Source: Sandaracinus amylolyticus (GTDB taxonomy: Bacteria > Myxococcota_A > Polyangia > Polyangiales > Sandaracinaceae). From it: a stretch of DNA of 64,000 nt. The translations under genes and the position numbers were made by a program. Of this stretch, positions 4,629-26,443 are shown piece by piece (within the stretch, counting starts at the first letter, position 1; each line of letters starts with the position of its first letter). The notes beneath the pieces were generated by a model that saw only the letters and a list, made by a program, of their open reading frames with translations, made no database searches and had not been told where the DNA came from. Location of the stretch: contig NZ_CP011125.1 of NCBI RefSeq assembly GCF_000737325.1, positions 930,001 through 994,000 of the forward strand, in the 5' to 3' direction.

Positions 4629-5912
4629 ATGACGACCGACAACGTGACCGAGCAGGAGCTGTCCCGTCTCAGCCAGATGATCGCGATGACGCAGCAGGCG
4701 ATGGGACGCCGCCCGGCGATGACGGCGCCGATGATGATGGGCGGGCTCGCCGGCGGCGGCGCCCAGTGGTGGCAGCAGCAGCAGCACGAGGGAGCGTTCC
4801 AGCTCGGCGATCGCGTCGCGGAGCGCGTGCACGAGCGGATCCGCGAGGGCCTGCACACGCGGCTCTCGGAGGCGATCCACGAGCGCCTGCGGGAGCGGCT
4901 CCGCGAGCGCATCCGCGAGGGCGTGCGCGCGGCGATCGCGTCGGGCGCGATCACGAGCGGCATGGCCGCGCACCGCATCGTCGAGATGGTGCGCGATCGC
5001 ATCGAGCAGTCGCTGCGCGACGACATCCGCGAGGAGCTCCGCGATCGCCTCGCGGAGGGCCTGCGCGAGCGCGTCGTGTACGCGATCCAGAGCCAGCTCG
5101 GCGAGGGCGGATACGTGATCGCCGAGCGCGTCGCGCAGGATCTCCGCGAGCGTCTGCGCGAGCGCGTGGTGCAGGAGCGTCTCGTCCCCGCGATCCGCGA
5201 GCGCATGCTCGAGGGCGTCGAGACGCGCATCGTCGACGGGATGCGCATCGCGCTGATGCAGAGCGAGGGCGCGTGGGGTGGCCCCGAGATGCTGCAGTCG
5301 CGCATCGCCGACGCGATCCACGAGCGCATCGCGCAGGGCATGCGGGAGCGCATCGAGGACGCACTGCGCACGCGCCTCGCGTCCACGCTGCGCGAGCGCG
5401 TCCAGGAGTCGGTCCGCAGCGCGATGACGATGACGAGCGCGCCGCAGCAGCTCGGCTACGCGCCGCAGCACGTCGGCTACGCGCCGCAGCACGTCGGCTA
5501 TTCGCCGCAGCACGCGGGCTATGCGCCGCAGCAGATGAGCTTCGGCGCCCCCGGGAACGCGCAGATGGGCTTCGGGCCGACGTCGATGGGCAGCGGGTTC
5601 GCCGAGCGCATCGGCGAGCGCCTGCGCGAGCGCTTCGGTGACGAGATCGCGGAGCGCATCGCGGATCGCGCGCGCGAGCGCGTGATGGACGGCCTGCGCG
5701 AGCGGCTCGCGGAGACGATCCGCACCTGCATGCAGCAGGGCGAGATGGATCCCGAGCGCCTCGCGGACGTCGTGCGCGAGCGCGTCGGCGAGGTCGCGCG
5801 CGAGCGCGTCGCGATGGCGATCCGCGAGCGGCTCCGCGACGATCTCCGCGAGCGCGTCACCGAGACGGTGCGGAGCATGGCGCAGGAGCGCACGAGCTCG
5901 CAGCTCTCCTGA
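4629..5912 (+). CDS. Arg/Glu-rich amphipathic helical repeat protein, function unknown
   Basis: This 427-residue protein is not assignable to a family. An N-terminal segment rich in Met, Gly and Gln (to about residue 55) is followed by about 200 residues of repeated RERLRERI-like units. A Gln/Tyr-rich linker with five tandem 7-residue repeats lies at residues 271-305, and another roughly 105 residues of Arg/Glu units close the protein. The repeat phase (hydrophobic, charged, charged, hydrophobic) suggests long amphipathic helices without a strict heptad. There is no signal peptide. The ATG at 4629 has a GGGGGA ribosome site; an ATG at 4593 is less likely. Codon use looks like that of its neighbours. 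Confidence 0.75.
   Translation: MTTDNVTEQELSRLSQMIAMTQQAMGRRPAMTAPMMMGGLAGGGAQWWQQQQHEGAFQLGDRVAERVHERIREGLHTRLSEAIHERLRERLRERIREGVRAAIASGAITSGMAAHRIVEMVRDRIEQSLRDDIREELRDRLAEGLRERVVYAIQSQLGEGGYVIAERVAQDLRERLRERVVQERLVPAIRERMLEGVETRIVDGMRIALMQSEGAWGGPEMLQSRIADAIHERIAQGMRERIEDALRTRLASTLRERVQESVRSAMTMTSAPQQLGYAPQHVGYAPQHVGYSPQHAGYAPQQMSFGAPGNAQMGFGPTSMGSGFAERIGERLRERFGDEIAERIADRARERVMDGLRERLAETIRTCMQQGEMDPERLADVVRERVGEVARERVAMAIRERLRDDLRERVTETVRSMAQERTSSQLS
5439..5543 (+). repeat. Five tandem 21-bp units encoding (A/S)PQ(Q/H)xGY repeats
   Basis: Four well-matched 21-bp units (5439-5459, 5460-5480, 5481-5501, 5502-5522) and a diverged fifth (5523-5543) lie inside the Arg/Glu-repeat gene. Each keeps the core CGCCGCAGCA and encodes seven residues. 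They form the Gln/Tyr linker between the two helical halves. Unit number may vary between strains. Confidence 0.85.
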
Positions 5913-5932
5913 GCGCGCACGCGTCGACCGAG

Positions 5933-5972
5933 CGACGGCAGCCCACCCGGAGGACGAGGTGGGCTGCCGTCG
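5933..5972. terminator. Bidirectional hairpin terminator between convergent genes
   Basis: A perfect stem has arms CGACGGCAGCCCACC (5933-5947) and GGTGGGCTGCCGTCG (5958-5972) around a 10-base loop. It lies between the Arg/Glu-repeat gene (+, ends 5912) and the debranching enzyme gene (-, ends 5988). No T tract is present, as expected in such GC-rich DNA. Confidence 0.8.
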
Positions 5973-5987
5973 TCGTCGTTCCGACGA

Positions 5988-8105
5988 TCACTCTGCGGCC
6001 GCGACGGTGCCGACGCCTCTGCGCTCGTTCACCGCCGCGAGGACGCGTATCGCCTCCGCCACGCTCCACGCCTGCGCGCAGCATCCGCGCGGCGTGTACG
6101 GCGGCTCCGCGTCGAAGATCTCGCTGATGCTCCCGATGCACGCGGTCGCGAGGTGCTGCCCGAGGCTGATCGCCGTCGGTCGGATCTCCTCGATGCGATC
6201 GGGATGCACCTTGCTCCATGCGTCGAAGTACGGGCCGATCAGCCACGGCCAGATCGTGCCCTGGTGATAGGCGAGGTCGCGCGCGCGCAGATCGCCGAAG
6301 TACTGCGGCTGGTAGTCGGGGTGCGAGGGCGCGAGCGAGCGCAGCCCGTACGGCGTGAGCAGCTGCGTGCGCACGACGTCGACGACCTGCTCCCAGCGCG
6401 ACGGATCGAGCACCGCGTGCGGGAGCGAGATCGAGAAGATCTGGTTCGGCCGGATCGCGTCGTCCGTCCCGTCCTCACCGTCGATCACGTCGAACAGGCA
6501 GCCGAGGCGCTCGTTCCAGAAGCGCGCGTTGAACGATTCGCGCGCGCGATCCGCGAGCCCGCGATAACGCTGCGCCGCGTCTTCGTCGCGCAGCTCGCTC
6601 CGCGCCCACTCCGCCATCAGGCAGAGCGCGTTGTACCAGAGCGCGTTGATCTCGACGGCCTTGCCCCGGCGCGGCGTGACGACGAGATCACCGACCTTCG
6701 CGTCCATCCACGTCAGCTGGTATCCGGCCGCGCCCTGCGCGAGCAGCCCGTCCTTCGGGTCGACGTGGATGCCGAAGCGCGTGCCCTCGACGTGACGATC
6801 CACGATGCTCGCGAGCAGCGGGAGCAAGCGGCGCAGCGTGTCGCGATCGCCGCTCGCGTCGACGTACCGGCGCGTCGCGTGGAAGAACCAGAGCGTCGCG
6901 TCCGCGGTGTGATAGAGGCCCTCGCCCTTTCCCTCCGGGAACATGTTGGGGATGAGCCCGTCCTTCGCGTACTTCGCGAACGTGCGGAGGATGTAGCCGG
7001 CCTCCGGCACGCGACCGGTCGTGATCGTCAGCCCTTCGAGGCTGATCATCGTGTCGCGGCCCCAGTCCGTGAACCAGTGATAGCCCGCGAGGATCGTGCG
7101 CTCCTCGTCGCCGAACGCGTGCGCGAGCGCCGCGTCCTCGAGGCGGCCCGCAGGATGGATGATGAACTGATCGGCGGCGACCACGAGCTCCGAGCCGGTG
7201 CTCGTGTGCAGGCCCGGATGCGCGATCGCGACGAGCCGCTCGCGCCGCGCGCGCTCCGCGCCGAGCGCGAGCTCCGGCGTCAGCGCGCCGATCGTTCGCC
7301 AGTCCTCGACCGACGCGACGAGCGCGACCGACGCGCCCGGCGCGATCGCCGCGCGGAACCTCCCGGGGCTGTAGAGATCGCCCGACGCGTCGTAGCCGCG
7401 CGACTGCTCGACGAGGTAGCGCACGTTGCGGATGCGGCGCTCTTCGATCTCGAAGCGCGAGGTCGCGCCCACGATCTTCATCCGCAGCGGCGGCAAGCCC
7501 ACGTCGACCAGGTCCTCCACCTCGTAGCGACCGCCGAGCGCGCGCAGCGCGTACTCGCCTTCGATGGGCCCCGCGAGCGTGCCCTCGTGAGGGCGGAAGT
7601 GGAGCCACGGATCGAGCTGCAGCTCGAGGTGCCCCGAGCCGTTCAGGCGCGTGTAGATGACGTAGACCGTGTTCTGCCGGTGCGGCATCACGATGCGCTT
7701 CTCGATCACGTGCCCCGCGTGCTCGTACGTCCACACCGGGATCCCGAGCTCGAGCCGGAACTCGCGCAGCGTTGCGAGCGGCGCGTGCGTCGCGTCGGGG
7801 TCGGGCTGCTCCGAGAGGCGCGCCGCCCCGTGCTCTCCGACGACGAGCTCGCGGAGGTTGTTGAGCATCATCGTGCGGCCGCGCGGCGCGGGCAGCGCGG
7901 CCACGAGGTAGCCGTGGAAGCGGCGCGTGACGAGGCCCGTCATCGTGCCGCACGCGTACCCGCCGAGACCGTTGGTGACGAGCCACTCGGGCGCGCCCTC
8001 GGTCGCGGTGCGCACGTCGGGGTTCACGGTGGTCGACTGGATCCCCTCGGCGGGCGGCGGTGCGCCGATGCCGACCCATCGCAGCGTGGTGGCGGTGCCG
8101 GGCAT
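5988..8105 (-). CDS. Glycogen debranching enzyme (amylo-alpha-1,6-glucosidase, GDE family)
   Basis: This 705-residue enzyme is predicted to cleave alpha-1,6 branches of glycogen or limit dextrin in the cytoplasm. The N-terminal GDE_N domain opens with WLVTNGLGGYACGTMTG and RRFHGYLVAALPAP. The C-terminal (alpha/alpha)6 catalytic domain shows WFTDWGRDTMISLEGL, ATLWFFHATRRY, EINALWYNAL and AYHQGTIWPWLIGPY, all typical of GH133-like bacterial debranching enzymes. The frame extends to 8165, but the ATG at 8105 has an AGGAGA ribosome site and starts the usual N-terminus. It is divergent from an Lrp/AsnC regulator, with a large inverted repeat between them, which suggests shared control. A GH13 amylase and a trehalose-synthase-like enzyme elsewhere in the window point to alpha-glucan use. 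Confidence 0.92.
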   Translation of the reverse strand: MPGTATTLRWVGIGAPPPAEGIQSTTVNPDVRTATEGAPEWLVTNGLGGYACGTMTGLVTRRFHGYLVAALPAPRGRTMMLNNLRELVVGEHGAARLSEQPDPDATHAPLATLREFRLELGIPVWTYEHAGHVIEKRIVMPHRQNTVYVIYTRLNGSGHLELQLDPWLHFRPHEGTLAGPIEGEYALRALGGRYEVEDLVDVGLPPLRMKIVGATSRFEIEERRIRNVRYLVEQSRGYDASGDLYSPGRFRAAIAPGASVALVASVEDWRTIGALTPELALGAERARRERLVAIAHPGLHTSTGSELVVAADQFIIHPAGRLEDAALAHAFGDEERTILAGYHWFTDWGRDTMISLEGLTITTGRVPEAGYILRTFAKYAKDGLIPNMFPEGKGEGLYHTADATLWFFHATRRYVDASGDRDTLRRLLPLLASIVDRHVEGTRFGIHVDPKDGLLAQGAAGYQLTWMDAKVGDLVVTPRRGKAVEINALWYNALCLMAEWARSELRDEDAAQRYRGLADRARESFNARFWNERLGCLFDVIDGEDGTDDAIRPNQIFSISLPHAVLDPSRWEQVVDVVRTQLLTPYGLRSLAPSHPDYQPQYFGDLRARDLAYHQGTIWPWLIGPYFDAWSKVHPDRIEEIRPTAISLGQHLATACIGSISEIFDAEPPYTPRGCCAQAWSVAEAIRVLAAVNERRGVGTVAAAE

Positions 8106-16447: not shown

Positions 16448-16461
16448 GTTCACTTTGTGAA
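16439..16461. promoter_or_regulatory. Overlapping palindromes GTGAA-N5-TTCAC and TTCAC-N3-GTGAA (candidate TetR operator)
   Basis: GTGAA at 16439-16443 pairs with TTCAC at 16449-16453. The same TTCAC pairs with GTGAA at 16457-16461. The stacked half-sites sit at the start of the TetR gene and about 50 bp upstream of ppx, the usual place for a self-repressing TetR operator. A nearby TTTACG may be part of a promoter. Binding by this TetR protein is inferred. Confidence 0.5.
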
Positions 16462-16511
16462 TGACGTTTACGGAATCGTCAAGCACGCGCCGCTGGTACG
16501 CTCCGGCGCGC

Positions 16512-18038
16512 ATGAACGACGTGCTCCCCGCGCGCACGAGCCCGAGCTCGGAGCGCGAGACGCTCGCGGCGCTCGATCTCGGCTCGAACAGCTTCCACCT
16601 CGTCATCGCCCGCGTGGACGCGGAGGGCGTGCACGTGCTCGACGAGCGGCGCGAGATGGTGCGCCTCGCGGAAGGCCTCGACGCGCACAACACGCTGCGC
16701 AGGCCGGTCGAGCGTCGCGCGCTCGCGTGCCTCGAGCGCTTCGGCGCCTCGCTGCGTCCGCTGCCGCGCGGCGCGGTGCGCGTCGTCGGCACGAACGCGC
16801 TGCGCAAGGCGCGCAACGCGCGCGACTTCGTGCGGCGCGCCGAGGCGCTGCTCGGTCATCCGATCGAGATCGTGAGCGGCGCCGAGGAAGCGCGCCTCAC
16901 GTACCTCGGCGTCGCGTCGGGTGATGCGCCGCGTCCGGGCGAGCGTCGCCTGCTCATCGACATCGGCGGAGGCAGCACCGAGTGCATCCTCGGCGTCGGC
17001 ACCGAGGTCGCGTCGGCGCACAGCCTCTTCATGGGCTGCGTCAGCTTCACCGAGCGCTACTTCCCGCACGGCCGCATCAAGCGGAAGCACTTCGAGAGCG
17101 CGCGGAACGCCGCGCTCGCCGAGCTCGCGACGTTCGCCGAAGGCTGGCAAGGACGCTTCGATCAAGCGTGGGGCAGCTCGGGCACGATGCGCGCGATCGA
17201 CGCGATCCTCACCACGAACAAGTGGGGTGGCGCGGGCATCACGCCGGAGGGGGTCGCGCTCTTCGCGGACGCGATCCTCGAGCATCGCGACGTGCGCGAG
17301 CTGCGCATCGACGGGCTCGCGCCCGAGCGCGCGCCGGTGATCCCGGGTGGCCTCGCGATCGTGAGCGCGGCGCTCGAGGCGCTCTCGATCCCGCGGCTGC
17401 GCGCGGCGCGCAGCGCGATGCGCGAGGGGATCCTCTACGACCTGATCGGTCGTCACGCGGATCACGACGTGCGCGAGGCGTCGATCCGGTCGTTCGCGGA
17501 GCGACACGGCGTCGATCGCGAGCACGCCGAGCGCGTGCAGGCGACCGCGCTCGCGCTGCTGCGCGACGTGTCGGTGCCGTGGCGCCTCGATCTGCTCGAC
17601 TACGGCGCGCCGCTGCGATGGGCGGCGACGCTGCACGAGATCGGGCAGTCGCTCACGTACGCCGGCTATCACAAGCACGGCGCGTATCTGGTCCGCAACG
17701 CGACGCTCGCGGGGCTCGCGCGCGAGGACGCGATCCGTGTGTCCGCGCTGATCGGGCTGCACCGCCGGAGGCCGAAGCTCGAGTACGCCGCGGGGCTCGA
17801 GCGCGCGCAGCAGCGCGATCTCCTGCGCGTCGCGGTGCTGCTGCGCCTGGCGGCCGCGCTCCATCGCAGCCGCGCGGCGATCCGTCCGCCGGTGCGCGCG
17901 TTCGCGAGCGGCAAGCAGCTCGAGCTGCGGCTGCCGCGCGCGTGGGCCGAGACGCACCCGCTCGCGATGGGCGAGGTGCGCGCCGAGCGCGAGCACCTGC
18001 GCAAGATGGGCGTGAAGCTGCGCGTCGTCGCGCGGTAG
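16512..18038 (+). CDS. Ppx/GppA family exopolyphosphatase
   Basis: This 508-residue enzyme belongs to the ASKHA-fold Ppx/GppA phosphatases, which hydrolyse polyphosphate and/or pppGpp. The N-terminal domain shows LAALDLGSNSFHLVIARV, VVGTNALRKARN, IEIVSGAEEARLTYLG, LLIDIGGGSTE and MGCVSFTERYF. The C-terminal HD-like domain contains LHEIGQSLTYAGYHKHGAYL. The frame is open from 16461, but the ATG at 16512 begins the normal N-terminus. Ppx and GppA activity cannot be distinguished from sequence alone. The gene is divergent from TetR and precedes the kinase-globin-hydrolase fusion by 80 bp. Confidence 0.92.
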   Translation: MNDVLPARTSPSSERETLAALDLGSNSFHLVIARVDAEGVHVLDERREMVRLAEGLDAHNTLRRPVERRALACLERFGASLRPLPRGAVRVVGTNALRKARNARDFVRRAEALLGHPIEIVSGAEEARLTYLGVASGDAPRPGERRLLIDIGGGSTECILGVGTEVASAHSLFMGCVSFTERYFPHGRIKRKHFESARNAALAELATFAEGWQGRFDQAWGSSGTMRAIDAILTTNKWGGAGITPEGVALFADAILEHRDVRELRIDGLAPERAPVIPGGLAIVSAALEALSIPRLRAARSAMREGILYDLIGRHADHDVREASIRSFAERHGVDREHAERVQATALALLRDVSVPWRLDLLDYGAPLRWAATLHEIGQSLTYAGYHKHGAYLVRNATLAGLAREDAIRVSALIGLHRRRPKLEYAAGLERAQQRDLLRVAVLLRLAAALHRSRAAIRPPVRAFASGKQLELRLPRAWAETHPLAMGEVRAEREHLRKMGVKLRVVAR

Positions 18039-18118
18039 CGCGCAACCTCGCGGAAAGACGGCGATGCGCGCCGCACGCGCGGCGCTGGACGGGCGTTCGG
18101 GCGTGGTAAGTTGCGGCC

Positions 18119-20329
18119 GTGGCGCACGCGGTGAGAGACGAGGGCGACTGGGATCCGCCTCGCGAATTCGACGGATTCGTGGTCGTCGGACCGCTCGGAC
18201 GCGGCGGCATGGGCGCGGTGCATCGCGGTCACGACGTCGCCCTCGATCGCCCCGTCGCGCTGAAGTTCGTGCGCGCGGCGCATCCCGATCCACGCGAGCG
18301 CGAGCGCTTCCTGCGCGAGGCCCGCGCCCTCGCGCGCCTCACGCATCCGAACGTCGTGCAGGTGTTCCGCGTCGGCGAGGTCGAGGGCAATCCGTACATC
18401 GCGTACGAGTTCGTCGAGGGCTCGACGCTGCACGCGATGCGCACGCCGGTGCGCTGGGATCTCGCGCTCGATCTCGGCATCGGCATGGCGCGCGGGCTCG
18501 CGTCGATCCACGCGCGCGGCCTGCTCCATCGCGACATCAAGCCCGCCAACGTCGTGGTGACGAGCACCGGGGTGCCGAAGCTGATCGACTTCGGGCTCGC
18601 CCTGCGCATCCACGAGAGCGAGGCGGTCGACACCAGCGGCCCGCTGCCGAGCGGCGCGACCGGGCTCACGTCGATCGGTCGCATCGTCGGCACGCCGCAG
18701 TACATGGCGCCCGAGCTCTTCGAGGGGCTGCCGGCCACGCTGCGCTCCGACGTGTACGCGCTCGGGCTCGTGCTGCGCGAGCTGCTCACGGGCGAGCGGC
18801 TGCGCTGGGGCATGCCGCTCGATCTGCTCGCGACCCGCGCCATCGAGGACGAGGTGCGCGTGCCGCGCGTGCCCGACGCGCCGCAGGGCTTGATCGACGC
18901 GGTCGTGCGCTGCCTGCGTCGCGATCCCGCGGAGCGATGGCCGGGCGCGGATGCGCTGCGCGACGCGCTCGAGCTGCTGCGTCGTTATTACCGTCCGTTC
19001 GCGCAGCCGACCGAGGGGCGCGGCGTCGAGGACGAGTACGGTCGGCTGACCGCGTCGTTCGCGCGGATCGCGTCGTCGGGCGACGCGATGATCTCGCGCT
19101 TCTACACGCTGCTCTTCGAGCGTGCGCCCGACGCGAAGCCGCTCTTCCCGCACGACCTCGAAGGTCAGCGCCACAAGCTGCTGCACGCGATCGAGAACGT
19201 GGTCGCGCAGATCCGCGCGCCCGAGCGCCTCGTGCCGCTGCTCGAGGATCTCGGGCGACGGCACGTCGCGTACGGCGCGCGGCGCGAGCACTTCGAGCAG
19301 GCGGAGAGCGCGCTGATCGCCGCGCTGCGCGAGCACGACCCGCGATGGGACGCGCCGACCGAGATGGCGTGGCGCACCGCGATCTCGCGCTTGTCCGAGG
19401 CGATGCTGCGCGGGATGGCGATCGCCGACACCGATCTCGCGGAGACGCTGCCGCCCGCGCCCTCGCCGGGGCCCACGCGGCGCTCGACCCCGGTGCGCGC
19501 GGAGGTGACGCAGGATCTGCCGCGCACGAGCTTCGTCGATCGCGATGGCGTCGCGATCGCGTACCAAGTGATGGGCGAGGGGCCGGTCGATCTGGTGCTC
19601 GTGCCGGGGCTCGTCTCGCACGTCGAGCGGTCGTGGCAGCACCCGGCGAGCGCGGCGTGGCAGCGCGGGCTCTCGTCGATCGCGCGGCTCGTGATGATCG
19701 ATCGTCGCGGATGCGGGCTCTCGGAGCGCGCGCCCGAGTCGTACGAGCTCGACGCGCAGGTGGACGACGTGCTCGCGGTGCTCGACGCGGTGTCGAGCCG
19801 CCGCGCGGTGATCGTGGGCACGTGCGATGCGGGCGCGATCGCGGCGCTCGCGGGCGCGAAGGCGCGCGCGCGGGTCGCCGGTGTGGTGATCGTCGGCGGC
19901 GCGCTGCGGCTCGGCGATGCGCTCTCGAGCGAGGTGATCGACGAGCGCGCGCAGGCCGTGCGCGCGGGGTGGGGCTCCGCGGTGCTCGCGGATCTGCTCG
20001 CGCCGTCGCTCGCGGAGGACGCGTCGTTCCTCGCGTTCTGGGCGTCGCTGTTGCGATCGTCGTCGAGCCCCGGCGCGCTCGCCGCGCAGCTGCGGCGAGG
20101 CGCGGAGATCGACCTCACCGCGCACGTCGCGTCGCTCGACGTGCCGACGCTGATCGTGCATCGGCGCGGCGATCGGTTCGTGCCGCAAGCGCAGGCACGC
20201 GCGCTCGCGGAGGCGCTGCCGAGCGCCGAGCTGGTCGTGCTCGACGGCGAGGATCACCTGCCGCTCGCGGGCCCTCGCGACGCGCTGCTCGACGTGATCG
20301 ACGCGTTCGTCGCGAAGGTCACGCGGTGA
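18119..20329 (+). CDS. Ser/Thr kinase - globin - alpha/beta-hydrolase fusion protein
   Basis: This 736-residue protein combines three domains. Residues 20-290 form a Hanks kinase with P-loop GRGGMG (27-32), Lys 49, HRD (137-139), DFG (157-159) and APE (197-199), all intact. Residues about 303-432 form a flavohemoglobin-type globin: FY at 328-329 (B10 Tyr 329), Phe 343 (CD1), Gln 350 (E7) and His 382 (proximal F8), so heme binding is predicted. Residues about 470-736 form an alpha/beta hydrolase like those next to adenylate cyclases (IDRRGCGLSER). Its nucleophile elbow reads GTCDAG with Cys 569 instead of Ser, with Asp 685 and His 713 completing a possible triad. The gene converges with a stand-alone globin at 20330. 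A heme-regulated kinase is a natural inference. No membrane segment is seen. Confidence 0.9.
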   Translation: MAHAVRDEGDWDPPREFDGFVVVGPLGRGGMGAVHRGHDVALDRPVALKFVRAAHPDPRERERFLREARALARLTHPNVVQVFRVGEVEGNPYIAYEFVEGSTLHAMRTPVRWDLALDLGIGMARGLASIHARGLLHRDIKPANVVVTSTGVPKLIDFGLALRIHESEAVDTSGPLPSGATGLTSIGRIVGTPQYMAPELFEGLPATLRSDVYALGLVLRELLTGERLRWGMPLDLLATRAIEDEVRVPRVPDAPQGLIDAVVRCLRRDPAERWPGADALRDALELLRRYYRPFAQPTEGRGVEDEYGRLTASFARIASSGDAMISRFYTLLFERAPDAKPLFPHDLEGQRHKLLHAIENVVAQIRAPERLVPLLEDLGRRHVAYGARREHFEQAESALIAALREHDPRWDAPTEMAWRTAISRLSEAMLRGMAIADTDLAETLPPAPSPGPTRRSTPVRAEVTQDLPRTSFVDRDGVAIAYQVMGEGPVDLVLVPGLVSHVERSWQHPASAAWQRGLSSIARLVMIDRRGCGLSERAPESYELDAQVDDVLAVLDAVSSRRAVIVGTCDAGAIAALAGAKARARVAGVVIVGGALRLGDALSSEVIDERAQAVRAGWGSAVLADLLAPSLAEDASFLAFWASLLRSSSSPGALAAQLRRGAEIDLTAHVASLDVPTLIVHRRGDRFVPQAQARALAEALPSAELVVLDGEDHLPLAGPRDALLDVIDAFVAKVTR

Positions 20330-20752
20330 TCACTCGGCGGCCTGCGCGCGGCTCGCGCCGGCGAGCATGAGGTCGCGGATCGCGCCGTACGCGGCGGCCC
20401 ACGCCGCTTCGAGCTCGGGCGTCCACGCGTCACCCGCGACCTCGGCCAGCGTGCGCAGCAGCGCGTCGCCGACCCAGCCGTACATCTCCTCGGTCACGCC
20501 GTAGTCGACGTGCTTCGCGCCCATCGCGCCGAGCGTCTCGACGAGCCACGGCGCGTCCTCGAGGCGATCGACGACGGCGGCGAGCGCGCGGGCGAGCATC
20601 TCTTCCTGCTGCTTCCGCGCGTTGCGCGCGAAGAGCGGGCGCGCCTGCGGATAGCGCTCGAAGAGGATCTCGTAGAAGCGCGCGGTGAGCGCGGGCTCGC
20701 GCTCGAGGACGAGCTCGAAGGACGAACGGAGCAGCGGGACGTCGAGTGACAC
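20330..20752 (-). CDS. Single-domain globin (flavohemoglobin-type globin domain)
   Basis: This 140-residue globin resembles Vitreoscilla-type hemoglobin. It keeps B10 Tyr 27 (RFYEILF), CD1 Phe 41 (RPLF), E7 Gln 48 and the proximal F8 His 81 (GAKHVDYGV), so it should bind heme and O2 or NO. The GTG start at 20752 has a GGGAGG ribosome site; an upstream in-frame ATG at 20866 lacks one. Its stop codon abuts that of the convergent kinase-globin fusion with no spacer. The globin domains of the two genes share the B, E and F helix signatures, which suggests paralogy. Confidence 0.92.
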   Translation of the reverse strand: MSLDVPLLRSSFELVLEREPALTARFYEILFERYPQARPLFARNARKQQEEMLARALAAVVDRLEDAPWLVETLGAMGAKHVDYGVTEEMYGWVGDALLRTLAEVAGDAWTPELEAAWAAAYGAIRDLMLAGASRAQAAE

Positions 20753-20901
20753 GGTGCAGCCTCCCTGGTGAGCGCGACCCGCAGAGTGCAGGGCGCGATC
20801 CACGGCGCGACCGCGCAATTCGCGGAGAAAGCTCGGCGGCGAACCGTGCGCGCACAGTGCGCGCACGGTTCGCGCACGGCGAGCACCGTGCTCGTTCTCG
20901 C

Positions 20902-22326
20902 CTAGAGCCCGTCGACTGCGATGCCGTGCTTCCGCAGCAAGCGATACAGCACGTAGCGATTCCGCAATCCGAGCTCGCGCGCCGCCTTCGTCACGCTGCC
21001 GCCCGCGCGCGCGATCGCGGCCTCGATCGCCTCGCGATCGGGCTCCTTCTCCTCACCGGCCGGCTCGCCTTCGCGCTCCGGGGTCGCGAGGCGATCGACG
21101 AGGCTCGGCACGAGCTCGAGCTTGCCCGCGCGGCTCTCCGCCATCGCCTGCCACAAGAGCTGCTCGAGCTCGCGCACGTTGAGCTCGTAGCGATGTCGCA
21201 GCAGCGCGTCGACGAGCTCGATGCTCGGCTCCGGCGCGGGGACGCGCGTCTTCGTCGCCGCGATCGACACGAGGTGCCGCACGAGCAGCGGGACGTCGTC
21301 GGGGCGCGCGTCGAGCTGCGGGATCTCGAGCACGATCCCGAAGCGCGCGCGCACGTCGTGCTTGAGCTCGTCGCGCGCGCGGTTCGTCGCGCCGACGACG
21401 CGAATGGACGCGCGGCGCGGGCGCGCGTCGCCGAGCCGCTGGTACTCGCCGTCGCGATCGAGCACGCGCAGCAGGTGCGCCTGCGCGGTGCTCGGCATCT
21501 CGCCGATCTCGTCGAGGAAGAGCGTGCCCTTGTCGGCCTCGCCGACGAGCCCGGGACGCTCCGCCATGCCGGGGTTCGGATAGTTCCGCACGTTGCCGAA
21601 GAGCTCGGCGTCGACGAGGCCCTCGGGCAGCGTCGCGGCGTTGCGCGCGACCAGCGGGCCCGACGCGCGCGACGAGAGCTGGTGGATCGCGCGCGCGACG
21701 AGCTCCTTGCCCGTGCCGCTCGCGCCCAGGAGCAGCACGTGCGCATCCGCGCGCGCCGCGAACGCGACGCGATCGCGCAGCGTCCACGCCGCGACGCTCT
21801 CGCCCACGAGCCCGAACCGATCGGGCGCGCCGAACGCGAACGGCGCCTCGTCCTCGCCCCACGCGCGCTGCGCGTCCATGCGCGTCGGACGACGCACCGC
21901 GAGCAACAGCAGCTCGTCCGCGATGCGCACCGTGTCTCCGGGAACGATCTCGCGCTCGGTCGCGGGCTCGCCCGAGATCCACATCGGCGCGCGACCGATC
22001 GACGCGACGCGCAAGCCCTTCGCCGTGGGCTCGATGCGCAGCTGCTCGCGCGAGAGCCGCGGCGATGCGAGCGGCTCGCTCGGTCCGTCGCCCCAAGGAC
22101 GCTGCCGGACGAAGCGCGCGCGGGGAGCGCCATCGGACGCGGGTGCGCTGCCGCGACCGAGCACGCACGCGCGCTCGATGCGCGCGACCTCGCCGACGCG
22201 ATCGGGCTCCGCGCGCGACCACGCGATCACCAGCGCGTGGACCTCGCGCGGACCACGCACGGCGCGCGCGCCGTGCAACGAGAGCTCGAAATCCTCGGTG
22301 GGTGCGTCGTCGATCGTCTTCGGCAT
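20902..22326 (-). CDS. FHA-domain AAA+ regulator lacking the GAFTGA loop
   Basis: This 474-residue protein has an N-terminal FHA-like domain (about residues 45-145), an AAA+ domain of the NtrC type (about 170-395; Walker A GASGTGKE at 201-208, Walker B GTLFLDEIGEM), and a C-terminal Fis-type helix-turn-helix (SVTKAARELGLRNRYVLYRLLRKHG). The sigma-54-contacting loop is not GAFTGA: after ELFG it reads NVRNYPNPGM (245-254). By family knowledge such proteins may not open sigma-54 promoters and may act otherwise. The FHA domain suggests recognition of phospho-Thr produced by a Ser/Thr kinase. It follows an AraC gene by 45 bp on the same strand. Confidence 0.88.
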   Translation of the reverse strand: MPKTIDDAPTEDFELSLHGARAVRGPREVHALVIAWSRAEPDRVGEVARIERACVLGRGSAPASDGAPRARFVRQRPWGDGPSEPLASPRLSREQLRIEPTAKGLRVASIGRAPMWISGEPATEREIVPGDTVRIADELLLLAVRRPTRMDAQRAWGEDEAPFAFGAPDRFGLVGESVAAWTLRDRVAFAARADAHVLLLGASGTGKELVARAIHQLSSRASGPLVARNAATLPEGLVDAELFGNVRNYPNPGMAERPGLVGEADKGTLFLDEIGEMPSTAQAHLLRVLDRDGEYQRLGDARPRRASIRVVGATNRARDELKHDVRARFGIVLEIPQLDARPDDVPLLVRHLVSIAATKTRVPAPEPSIELVDALLRHRYELNVRELEQLLWQAMAESRAGKLELVPSLVDRLATPEREGEPAGEEKEPDREAIEAAIARAGGSVTKAARELGLRNRYVLYRLLRKHGIAVDGL

Positions 22327-22371
22327 GCTGCGGGAGGCCGCAGGATACGCGACGCCGACGACGAACGTGAG

Positions 22372-23403
22372 TCAGCGCTGCGAGCGGCGGAACTCGTCCG
22401 GCGTCTGGCCCGTCCATCGCTTGAACGCGCGATGGAAGTTGCTCGACTCGGAGAAGCCGAGCAGGAACGCGACCTCGCCGATCGCCATCTCGCTCTGCAC
22501 GAGCCAGCCCTGCGCGAGCTCGCGTCGCACGTCGTCGAGCACCTGACGGAACGTCGTGCCCTCTTCACCGAGACGACGCCGCAGCGTGCGCTCGCTCCAG
22601 CCGAGACGACGCGAGACGTTCGTCTCGCTCACCTCGCCGGCGTGCAGCGCCTCGCTCACCGCGCGACGCACGCGCGCGGTCGCGTCGGCGCGCGCGCCCA
22701 TGCGCCGCAGCATCTCCTCGGCGTGTCGTTCGAAGAACGCGGACAGGCTCGGATCCGCCTTCGCGAGCGGCAGGTCGAGCATCGCGCGCGGAATGACGAG
22801 CTCGGTGCGGGGCGCGCCGAAGCGCACGGCGCACCCGAAGAGCTGCTCGTGCGGGCGCGTGTCCGCGGGCGCGGCGTGGGTGAACGACACGAGCGAGGGC
22901 GACCAGGAGCGTCCCCCGTTCTCGTGCCCGATCAGCACGCGCACGGTGATGACGATCTTCGCCATCGTCGACTCGCCCGAGAGCTCGCGGCCGAGCCGGC
23001 GCGGGGCGGTCTGGTGCAGCGTGAGCCGCGTCTCTTCGGCGTGCTGCTCGAGCGTGAGCGTCTCGCCCTGCAGGAACAGCGAGAGGAAGCGCGCGAGGCG
23101 ATCGAGCGCCTCGCGCACCGTCGCCGCGGTCATGCACGTGTAGCCGAGGACGCTGAACTTCGATGGATCGGAGTCCTCCGCGACGCGCAGCGGCAGCGCG
23201 CGGTCGCCGCACTCCTCGATCGCCGTCTCCCACAGCTGATGGTGCGTGGGCAGTGGAATGTGCGCTTCGGGGTCTTTCAGGCGATCGGGCGTGAGCCCGA
23301 TTCGCTCGAGGATGCGCGCACGGTCTGCGCCCGACTTCTCTGCGCAATGGAGCACCATGAGGGCCCCCATCACCGAGACACTGCCGCCCCCGCCCTTGGT
23401 CAC
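22372..23403 (-). CDS. AraC family transcriptional regulator (OruR-like)
   Basis: This 343-residue regulator has an N-terminal arabinose-binding-like domain of the PF12625 type (HIPLPTHHQLWETAIEECGD; SDPSKFSVLGYTCMTA). Its C-terminal double helix-turn-helix contains SRRLGWSERTLRRRLGEEGTTFRQVLDDVRRELAQ and VAFLLGFSESSNFHRAFKRWTGQTPDEFR. The GTG at 23403 is used as start; the ATG a few codons later (MGALMVL) is an alternative. It is divergent from a hypothetical gene at 23544, and no ligand or target is evident. Such regulators often respond to amino acids or fatty acids. Confidence 0.9.
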   Translation of the reverse strand: MTKGGGGSVSVMGALMVLHCAEKSGADRARILERIGLTPDRLKDPEAHIPLPTHHQLWETAIEECGDRALPLRVAEDSDPSKFSVLGYTCMTAATVREALDRLARFLSLFLQGETLTLEQHAEETRLTLHQTAPRRLGRELSGESTMAKIVITVRVLIGHENGGRSWSPSLVSFTHAAPADTRPHEQLFGCAVRFGAPRTELVIPRAMLDLPLAKADPSLSAFFERHAEEMLRRMGARADATARVRRAVSEALHAGEVSETNVSRRLGWSERTLRRRLGEEGTTFRQVLDDVRRELAQGWLVQSEMAIGEVAFLLGFSESSNFHRAFKRWTGQTPDEFRRSQR

Positions 23404-24364: not shown

Positions 24365-26419
24365 TCATCGCTGTGCGAGACGAGCGAGCGCCTCGAGATC
24401 CGCGGCCGCGCTGCCGACCCGCGCGCCGAGCGGAAGCATCAGCACGGCCCGACCTTCCGCGACGACGACGTGCGCCGCGTCGACGTGCCCGTGCACGAGC
24501 CCCTGCGCGTGCAGGCCCTCGAGCGCGATCCGGATCTCCTCGGCGCGCATGCGATCGAGCGCCGCGCGCGCAGGCTCACCCTGCGGGAGCTCGAGGATCG
24601 CGCGCCCGCCCTCCTCGTCGATCGACCACACCGCCTGCAGGAACGGCGAGTCCGCGCGCGCCAGCGCGCGCAGCGAGCGCGCGCGATCGGCGTCGCACGG
24701 GACGATCACCACGCGCCGGCGCAGCAGCTCGTCGTCGGCGATCGTCGTGCCGTCGAGCTTCACGTCGACGATCGACCATCGCTCGACCGGCGGCGCGGGC
24801 GGTGCGCTGCTGCGTCGCGTCGTCACCGGCGTCGCGCTGCGCGGCGCGAGCTGCGCCTCCTGCTCGATGTGCGCCCAGGGGAGGTGCGCCCACGCCTCGA
24901 GCACCTCGCTCGCGGTGCGCGGTCGCGCCGCGGGATCCTTCTCGAGCATCGACGCGATCAGCGTGTCGAGCGCCTCGCCGATCCACGGCGCGTGGGTGAT
25001 CGCGCGCGCCGGCGTGAGCTCGAGGTGCTGCGCGACGAAGTCGGGGCCGGGGAAGGGCAGCACGCCGGTGAGCGCGCGGTAGACGATCACGCCGAGCGAA
25101 TAGAGGTCGGTCGACGCGTCGGGGCGCGACGATCCCGTGATCTGCTCGGGCGACATGTACGCGAGCGTGCCCATCATCGCGCCGGTCAGCGTCGCGCCGA
25201 GATCCGCGAGGTGCGCGACGCCGAAGTCGCCGAGCTTCACCTCGCCGGTGCGCCCGAAGAACACGTTCGCGGGCTTCAGATCGCGATGCACGACACCGCG
25301 CCGATGCACCGCCTCGAGCGCGCTCAGCACCGAGCGCCCCACGTGCTGCACGACGCTCGCCGGGAGCGCGGTCGCGACGTCGCCGTTCGACAGACGATCC
25401 TCGAGCGTGCCGCCGGACATGTGCTCCATCACGAGGAAGGGCCCGTCCGGCTGGTACTCGTAGACCTGCACGACGTTCGGGTGATCGATGCCCGCCGCGA
25501 CCTTCGCCTCACGCGCGAAGCGGCTCAGCGCGTCGCGCCCCGCGGCGCCCGAGCTGCCCGCGTGCAGCACCTTGATCGCGACCTCGCGCCCGTAGAACGC
25601 GTCCTCCGCGAGCAGCACGCGACCGGTGCCGCCCGCGCCGAGCGCGCGCACCACGCGATAGCGCCCCGCGATCAGCTGATCGCGGCTCGCGCTGCGTGGA
25701 CCGCGCTCGTCGCCGAACGACGCGCGCAGCAGCTCGGGCACCGTCGCCGGCATCGAGGGCTCGAGCGCACGCAGCACGTCGAGCCGGCTCTGCGCGGCGT
25801 CGGTCATCCCGAGCGCGTCGAAGCACGCGACGAGCAGCTTGCCCGCGGGGATCGCGAGCTCTTCGCGGTCCGCCGCGATCTGCAGCGCGCGCGCGGCGTG
25901 ATCCCATCGACCGAAGCGCGCGAGGATCTGTCCGAGCTCGAACGCGCTCTCGGCGTCGTCGGGCGTGTCGCGCAGACGACGCTCGTAGAGCATGCCCGCC
26001 TTGCGCACGTCGCCGAGCTCCTTCCAGCAGCGCGCTGCGTCGCCGAGCTCGCCCGCGCGCTCGTGGAGCGTCGCCGCGGCCTCGAGCTCGCCCGCCGCCT
26101 CGCGCAGCCGTGCTGCGTCGCTGGTCCGCCCGCGCGCCTCGGCGTAGCTCGCCGCGCGCGAGGCTTGCTCGGGGCGCGCCGCGAGGCTCGAGAGCAGCGA
26201 CGCCGCGAGCTCGCGATCCTGCGCGCCCACCGCGTGTCGGTACGCTTCGTCGTAGAGCCCGGCGTCGGTCGCGACACGGATCGCCTCGGCGTGCTTCCAC
26301 ACCGCCGCGAGGAGCTCCGCGGCGCGCGCGGGCTGCCCACCTTCCGCGCAGATGCGCGCGGCTTCTTCGTGGCGCCCCTCGCGCACGAGGGCCTGCACCA
26401 CCGCGTCGTCGACCGCCAT
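24365..26419 (-). CDS. TPR - Ser/Thr kinase with degenerate kinase-like C-terminal tail
   Basis: This 684-residue protein has three parts. Residues 1 to about 235 are helical TPR-like repeats (EEAARICAEGGQPARAAELL and similar). Residues about 254-512 form a complete Hanks kinase (P-loop GAGGTGRV, Lys 283, HRD 378-380, DFG 398-400, SPE). After a Pro/Ser linker, residues about 545-684 look like the remains of a second kinase C-lobe: LHAQGLVHGHVDAAHVVV matches LHxxGLVHRDLKPANVLV, but the HRD, Lys and Asn are replaced (HGH, A, H at 643-650). The ATG at 26419 is preferred to the GTG 6 bases upstream. No membrane segment is seen, so the kinase is probably cytoplasmic. Confidence 0.88.
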   Translation of the reverse strand: MAVDDAVVQALVREGRHEEAARICAEGGQPARAAELLAAVWKHAEAIRVATDAGLYDEAYRHAVGAQDRELAASLLSSLAARPEQASRAASYAEARGRTSDAARLREAAGELEAAATLHERAGELGDAARCWKELGDVRKAGMLYERRLRDTPDDAESAFELGQILARFGRWDHAARALQIAADREELAIPAGKLLVACFDALGMTDAAQSRLDVLRALEPSMPATVPELLRASFGDERGPRSASRDQLIAGRYRVVRALGAGGTGRVLLAEDAFYGREVAIKVLHAGSSGAAGRDALSRFAREAKVAAGIDHPNVVQVYEYQPDGPFLVMEHMSGGTLEDRLSNGDVATALPASVVQHVGRSVLSALEAVHRRGVVHRDLKPANVFFGRTGEVKLGDFGVAHLADLGATLTGAMMGTLAYMSPEQITGSSRPDASTDLYSLGVIVYRALTGVLPFPGPDFVAQHLELTPARAITHAPWIGEALDTLIASMLEKDPAARPRTASEVLEAWAHLPWAHIEQEAQLAPRSATPVTTRRSSAPPAPPVERWSIVDVKLDGTTIADDELLRRRVVIVPCDADRARSLRALARADSPFLQAVWSIDEEGGRAILELPQGEPARAALDRMRAEEIRIALEGLHAQGLVHGHVDAAHVVVAEGRAVLMLPLGARVGSAAADLEALARLAQR

Positions 26420-26443
26420 CCGCACAGTCTAGGGCAGACCCCG

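Follow-up and report, generated by a model that had tools for sequence, protein, structure and literature searches.

Can a bacterial Ser/Thr kinase be governed by a gas that binds to heme? The question is raised by a gene in a 64,000-nucleotide stretch of DNA from Sandaracinus amylolyticus, a soil-dwelling myxobacterium (contig NZ_CP011125.1, positions 930,001 to 994,000 of the forward strand; hereafter the window, to which all coordinates refer). The gene encodes a protein of 736 residues in which a Hanks kinase, a globin and an alpha/beta-hydrolase fold follow one another. The central idea of the first-pass annotation, that of a globin-coupled Ser/Thr kinase, is well founded as judged from the sequence. 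Sequence comparison and structure models also make it rather probable that the protein is a sensor kinase that responds through heme to a gas or to redox state and would most likely act on an AAA+ regulator encoded nearby. The gene and its parts are as follows (aa, amino acids):

18119..20329, plus strand: kinase-globin-alpha/beta-hydrolase gene; GTG start, TGA stop, 736 aa; architecture repeated in 13 other genomes
18176..18973, plus strand: Hanks Ser/Thr kinase domain, residues 20-285, recognised by Pfam and by the PDB folds PknB/PknE; K49, HRD (137-139) and DFG (157-159) intact
19025..19426, plus strand: F-type globin domain, residues 303-436, with Tyr329, Phe343, Gln350 and His382, and with Phe392 at the position of VHb Tyr95
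19292..19294, plus strand: codon of Phe392, which replaces the proximal Tyr of flavohemoglobins; no Tyr in 19/19 kinase-adjacent globins
19511..20317, plus strand: probable pseudohydrolase with alpha/beta-hydrolase fold (residues 465-733); closest among NCBIfam models to the LipJ lipase/adenylate cyclase
19823..19825, plus strand: Cys569 codon, nucleophile position within GTCDAG, which is occupied by Gly in G181 and most members
20171..20173, plus strand: codon of Asp685 at the catalytic-acid position; kept in 14/14
20255..20257, plus strand: codon of His713 at the catalytic-His position; kept in 14/14

The fusion and its distribution

Profile searches recover Pkinase (residues 22-279, E 1.8e-41), Globin (PF00042, residues 327-429, E 5.3e-14) and Abhydrolase_1 (residues 492-715, E 2.6e-21) in one open reading frame (ORF), all above the curated Pfam cut-offs, as the first-pass annotation had read them from the letters. 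The motifs that define a Hanks kinase (P-loop, Lys, HRD, DFG and APE) lie at 27, 46-49, 137-144, 157-159 and 191-199, and the catalytic residues K49, H137-R138-D139, K141, N144 and D157-F158-G159 are all there and invariant among 12 aligned homologues. The evidence thus supports the earlier description of the kinase domain as complete, with a predicted specificity for Ser/Thr.

Another genome from the same genus (G181) has a counterpart that is 92.9% identical, with an overall ratio of nonsynonymous to synonymous substitution rates (dN/dS) of 0.185, which argues against an artefact of reading frame or assembly. By domain, the ratio is 0.071 in the kinase and 0.070 in the globin, both under strong constraint, and 0.351 in the less constrained hydrolase. 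An artefact or chance fusion was rejected, as 14 genomes carry the fusion and dN/dS is below 1 in each of the three domains.

A search for the same architecture elsewhere, as had been proposed, followed by ORF analysis, found kinase, globin and hydrolase in the same order in 14 of 489 Myxococcota genomes, the window's own included, from two orders of one class. A globin-hydrolase query against 183 genomes of the order gave 12 with one match running through both domains (own genome included), and a kinase-globin query, run at E 1e-50 on 377 genomes from across the phylum, brought in two more, which belong to another order of the class (G253 and G422). Since not every genome met both queries and the latter cut-off was strict, further members may exist. 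Named carriers are Minicystis rosea DSM 24000 and Sorangium cellulosum So ceGT47, So0157-2 and So0008-312 (Polyangiales, Myxococcota); at least four members come from metagenome-assembled genomes (G051, G125, G135 and G168). Kinase-globin proteins with no further partner were found as well (L057, L058).

The globin domain and its proximal pocket

The model of the globin stretch, built from 21 sequences, has a mean predicted local distance difference test score (pLDDT) of 93.3. Among solved structures its top matches are neuroglobins, and Hell's Gate globin I (3s1i) is matched with a target TM score of 0.91 and a root-mean-square deviation of 1.2. The stretch of residues 303-432, which had been named as the point on which the globin assignment would stand or fall, therefore matches solved globins. 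Tyr329, Phe343, Gln350 and His382, which we take to be B10, CD1, E7 and F8 in helix nomenclature, agree with the heme ligands and pocket residues first read from the sequence, and they are invariant in 14/14 triple fusions and in 19/19 globins that directly follow a kinase.

By sequence, the globin belongs to the flavohemoglobin lineage (F-type) and not to the S-type of the classical globin-coupled sensors; it is placed after the kinase, and the protein has no match to PF11563 (protoglobin) at E 0.01. Alignment with VHb maps Tyr95 of the latter onto Phe392. Among the 19 kinase-adjacent globins this position is Phe in 14, Val in three, Leu in two and never Tyr, whereas 37 of the 38 other aligned globins have Tyr. 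This proximal Tyr is part of the proximal hydrogen-bond relay of flavohemoglobins, and its loss would fit a shift from redox catalysis to ligand sensing; a literature search on loss of the relay returned no matching paper.

The lineage also raises the question whether the globin could be a heme enzyme or scavenger, such as an NO dioxygenase or a peroxidase, that is tethered to the kinase for localisation and leaves its activity unregulated. B10 Tyr together with E7 Gln forms the pocket of NO dioxygenases, and the flavohemoglobin ancestry is borne out by the PDB matches and by the NCBIfam flavohemoprotein model (2.1e-10). Such a role is nevertheless unlikely: the proximal Tyr of VHb and flavohemoglobins is gone from all 19 kinase-adjacent globins, Pfam finds no FAD/NAD reductase domain in the protein of the window, and a separate, Tyr-bearing globin, described below, adjoins five of the 14 fusion genes.

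Less probable again is that the kinase is constitutive or responds to redox stress, with a globin fold that is heme-free in vivo or takes heme only to sense its supply. HRI senses heme supply. As a heme-regulated Ser/Thr kinase, HRI lends this idea a precedent (available text of PMC1457004); against it stand the invariance of the four heme-pocket residues throughout the kinase-adjacent globins and a predicted fold that matches full globins.

In a globin tree of 57 rows (midpoint root; matches of up to 80 bits and duplicate copies left out), the 19 globins directly behind a kinase cluster with support 91/95, short of the 95/80 threshold for starred groups. The free globins form a separate, starred group (100/99). 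Within the kinase-adjacent cluster, the 14 triple fusions are intermixed with five proteins that have no hydrolase, three of which are near copies from one genus. The triple fusions require four changes on this tree, which therefore does not demonstrate that the hydrolase was added only once.

Other globin arrangements were met in these searches. Kinase-leucine-rich-repeat-globin proteins (L056:1490-4894 and L060:1561-5100) keep the proximal Tyr and fall outside the main kinase-globin group. L055:1957-6225 encodes 1423 aa with a kinase, a globin, two cyclic-nucleotide-binding stretches and a class-V aminotransferase; in related genomes, its siblings (L065, L066 and L068) have ORFs of 1434 and 1440 aa with kinase and globin. 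L054:2666-4771 (G165) carries two tandem globins in 702 aa and is followed immediately downstream by the gene of a kinase-AAA protein (4780-6501); similar double-globin ORFs occur in its siblings. PF00042 globins are also fused to PAS-chemoreceptors (L059:1988-4615 and L122:5806-8301). An apparent duplicated stretch and an ambiguous residue in the kinase region of L047:7545-10346 (G167, a draft) are probably an assembly fault. The acidobacterial L131:2087-4438 (784 aa) combines a kinase, a 2Fe-2S ferredoxin (Fer2) and a globin, with a cyclase match just below the Pfam cut-off. The kinase-globin fusion does not appear to be common in Acidobacteriota: among 297 genomes drawn, 22 have a globin match (E 1e-15), and L131 is the only one with a long ORF, the one in which Pfam finds the kinase, the remaining ORFs measuring 143-420 aa.

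The hydrolase fold and its nucleophile position

An alpha/beta hydrolase had been noted as the third domain, with the hydrolase as one possible output. The fold stands; an active hydrolase as the general output does not, as the nucleophile is missing in 12 of the 14 triple fusions. Gly takes its place in 11 and Cys in the window; the remaining two have Ser (G051 and G125). All 17 related hydrolases that were aligned have Ser; two of them come from the window's own genome and 15 from elsewhere in the order. The window protein carries Cys569 in place of the Ser of the G-x-S-x-G motif, and the Gly of G181 at this position implies that the Cys is no conserved catalytic residue. Moreover, dN/dS of the hydrolase is five times the kinase or globin value. 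The domain is thus probably a largely inactive pseudohydrolase, as far as its residues tell, which may be kept for binding or assembly.

The nearest model, the LipJ-type hydrolase-adenylate cyclase (NF058673), matches the domain with 3.3e-41, but the score of 141.5 bits is far under the curated cut-off of 800, the nucleophile is replaced, and the protein ends at the hydrolase with no Guanylate_cyc match by Pfam. In G253 the LipJ match spans 8-424 of 449 and in G422 7-424, entering the cyclase part, whereas Pfam finds no cyclase in the C-terminal tails of G253, G422 and G130; a degenerate cyclase tail in G253 and G422 is a suggestion that the LipJ model favours and Pfam does not. Elsewhere, alpha/beta hydrolases that keep the Ser nucleophile are fused to helix-turn-helix (HTH) domains of transcription-factor type (L052:2184-3887, in the window's own genome, and L024:1168-2745).

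A hydrolase fold can sense a ligand, for which D14/KAI2 and RsbQ are the model, and the true sensor of the protein might accordingly be this domain, responding to a small ester- or lactone-like compound, while the globin merely dimerises or sets the redox state. Several features point that way: Asp and His are kept in all triple fusions, the LipJ lipase/cyclase model and, weakly, D14 (6.5e-6, as against 4e-14 for the best PDB matches, haloperoxidases and esterases) match the domain, and in L052 and L024 a related fold is attached to an HTH regulator. We regard this as improbable all the same, for the hydrolase is the least constrained of the domains and is absent from the five kinase-globin proteins of the same globin group, which implies that the kinase-globin pair can stand alone.

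Neighbouring genes and a possible signalling relay

Beyond what the first-pass annotation described, the protein belongs to a conserved family whose F-lineage globin has lost the proximal Tyr in a class-specific manner, and the locus also holds genes for an AAA+ regulator and a free globin, which recur as a pair. The pathway is likely to include these two genes, which had gone unmentioned. The relevant neighbours in the window are:

16461..18038, plus strand: Ppx/GppA phosphatase gene, 80 bp upstream of the fusion gene on the same strand
20330..20866, minus strand: free-standing single-domain globin, ORF of 178 aa, convergent with the fusion gene; proximal Tyr kept; conserved core from about 20758
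20902..22326, minus strand: AAA+ regulator of the sigma54-activator type with a Fis-type HTH and an FHA-like N-terminus; GAFTGA replaced by NYPNPGM

The stop codons of the fusion gene and the free globin abut (TGA 20327-20329, TCA 20330-20332). The free globin adjoins five of the 14 fusion genes (window, G181, G130, G051 and G125, the last on a contig of 4.2 kb at this locus). In the globin tree, that of the window clusters with its counterparts at the four other loci and with globins beside the regulator subfamily; the separate tree groups rule out a recent copy of the fused globin. The regulator gene shares the strand of the free globin and precedes it, with 35 bp to the globin ORF and about 140 bp to the conserved core. 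It is directly adjacent to the fusion gene in G051 and G135; in the window one gene intervenes, and the distances in G130 and G181 are about 3 kb and about 6.5 kb. Scans for sigma70-type promoters and terminators over 17900-22600 gave no match. The Ppx/GppA gene was discarded as a conserved partner, as G181 is the only one of the 13 other fusion loci to have it. Another kinase gene, with weak tetratricopeptide matches and Pkinase, lies about 4 kb from the fusion gene (24365-26425, minus strand).

The GAFTGA loop is the sigma54 contact of sigma54 activators. It is absent from all 12 members of the regulator subfamily that were examined (the window gene, L042, L043, L049 and L174-L181), which have a YPN- or YPH-type sequence instead; a generic regulator paralogue in L042 retains GAFTGA. 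A profile of the regulator N-terminus, built from six sequences, gave three PDB matches at E <=10, all of them aprataxin or APLF chains (best 3kt9, a weak E of 0.0025), which we take to be FHA domains, as we presume the motif of the regulator itself to be of FHA type.

Regulators of this kind also occur near globins where the fusion is absent. From 183 genomes, 79 regulator rows were gathered without regard to globins, with up to eight candidates scored per genome. A globin gene or globin-fused kinase lies within 3 kb in 11 of them (12 counting G181, at about 6 kb), against a chance expectation of 0.13, which is rough and assumes two globins per 9-Mb genome. Seven regulator-globin loci lack the fusion, and in five of them the adjacent ORF encodes a Ser/Thr kinase (G167, G164 at 2.46 Mb, G124, G117 and G052; rough binomial P 8e-7); the two others are G164 at 1.91 Mb and G155, where the contig extends 2.6 kb on one side. 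At the five loci, kinase, globin and regulator are separate genes, an unfused form of the fusion in the window. These probabilities are back-of-envelope values, and kinases and such regulators may adjoin for other reasons.

The components could operate in the following manner. The globin of the protein, which is presumably cytoplasmic, most likely takes heme via His382 and would report O2, NO or the redox state of the heme to the kinase fused directly before it. The kinase would then phosphorylate other proteins, and the AAA+ regulator (20902-22326), with an N-terminus reminiscent of the FHA domains that read phosphothreonine, is the most likely target. The regulator would set gene expression, probably including that of the free globin downstream. 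The C-terminal LipJ-related fold would most likely serve as a second ligand-binding or dimerisation domain and not as an enzyme. More tentatively, the whole may form a Ser/Thr relay from gas to transcription: an F-type globin, made a sensor by the loss of its Tyr, possibly switches a Hanks kinase that acts on an FHA-like regulator without GAFTGA, with the dead hydrolase as second ligand input.

Several observations weigh against the sensor-kinase proposal. The full-length model (mean pLDDT 79.4; nine sequences, one of them without the hydrolase) matches Ser/Thr and other protein kinases as well as esterases in the PDB, but its predicted TM score of 0.42 leaves the interdomain arrangement undefined, so that no coupling surface can be demonstrated from it. 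Loss of the proximal Tyr could equally mean a weaker heme function, and the two hydrolase domains that retain Ser could be active. The fusion is patchy; it occurs in two of the ten genomes of the window's own family and is absent from G182, a third genome of the genus. Regulator and/or free globin are near only six of the 14 fusion loci, neither having been seen in the examined flanks of six Sorangium-type loci, G253 and G422, and 67 of the 79 regulator rows have no globin nearby. As to the regulator, its N-terminus resembles an FHA domain by a weak profile match and by its motif, and a Pfam scan of four regulators gave no FHA match even when relaxed to E 1.

To our knowledge, the bacterial globin sensors described so far act on histidine kinases, cyclases or chemoreceptors, and most of them use S-type globins. 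The available text of PMC11841059 describes in Myxococcus xanthus the histidine kinase NmpU, which heads a relay to the NtrC-like NmpR, a controller of oxygen-use genes; an NmpU homologue senses O2 via a protoglobin domain, and NmpU autophosphorylation is sharply reduced once heme binding is lost. As in the globin-coupled sensors AfGcHK and NmpU, a heme-type globin is fused to a protein kinase in the window, and the NmpU pathway leads to an NtrC-like activator; unlike their combination of protoglobin and histidine kinase (same source), the window protein has a PF00042 globin of F-type behind a Hanks Ser/Thr kinase. The fusion to a signalling output agrees with classical globin-coupled sensors; their N-terminal S-lineage globin is missing. 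By analogy, the relay outlined above could perhaps be a Ser/Thr counterpart of NmpU-NmpR, fused in 14 genomes and encoded by separate genes in others, a notion to which, relay included, we give somewhat less than an even chance.

Three further systems are close in one respect or another: (i) HGbRL, a globin-Roadblock/LC7 protein presumably from Methylacidiphilum (PDB 3wfw), is the best PDB sequence match of the window globin (E 2.2e-13) and likewise joins an F-type globin to a partner other than a reductase, but it has no kinase and has Tyr at the position of Phe392; (ii) PknB-type Hanks kinases share the full kinase domain with all motifs, whereas the window protein has no PASTA match by Pfam and carries a globin and a pseudohydrolase instead; (iii) HRI is a Ser/Thr kinase under heme control, which is only proposed for the window protein, and differs in being eukaryotic and in its N-terminal heme-binding region, globin-like according to others and unrecognised as a globin in the searches of PMC1457004, as far as its available text goes.

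The available text of the same globin census gives the chimeric classes of globins as flavohemoglobins and globin-coupled sensors (PMC1457004), and that of PMC6194562 describes a PAS-globin chemoreceptor in Corallococcus. The literature on globin-kinase fusions and myxobacterial kinomes yielded no bacterial globin-Ser/Thr kinase fusion, subscription journals lying mostly outside the search; within these limits, the statement that no globin-coupled Ser/Thr kinase with a hydrolase was known agrees with what is described. The term 'globin' is absent from the main text of two Ser/Thr kinase surveys (PMC1262709 and PMC11032199) and of a paper on the myxobacterial phosphatome (PMC2887360).

If the proposal is true, the large myxobacterial kinomes would gain one of few inputs that can be named, globins of the flavohemoglobin lineage would have been recruited for sensing, with the loss of the proximal Tyr as the visible signature, and attention would be drawn to a globin-linked subfamily of AAA+ regulators without GAFTGA. 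In the bacteria that bear the fusion, a signal from a gas or from redox state may reach other proteins along a pathway absent from the literature searched.

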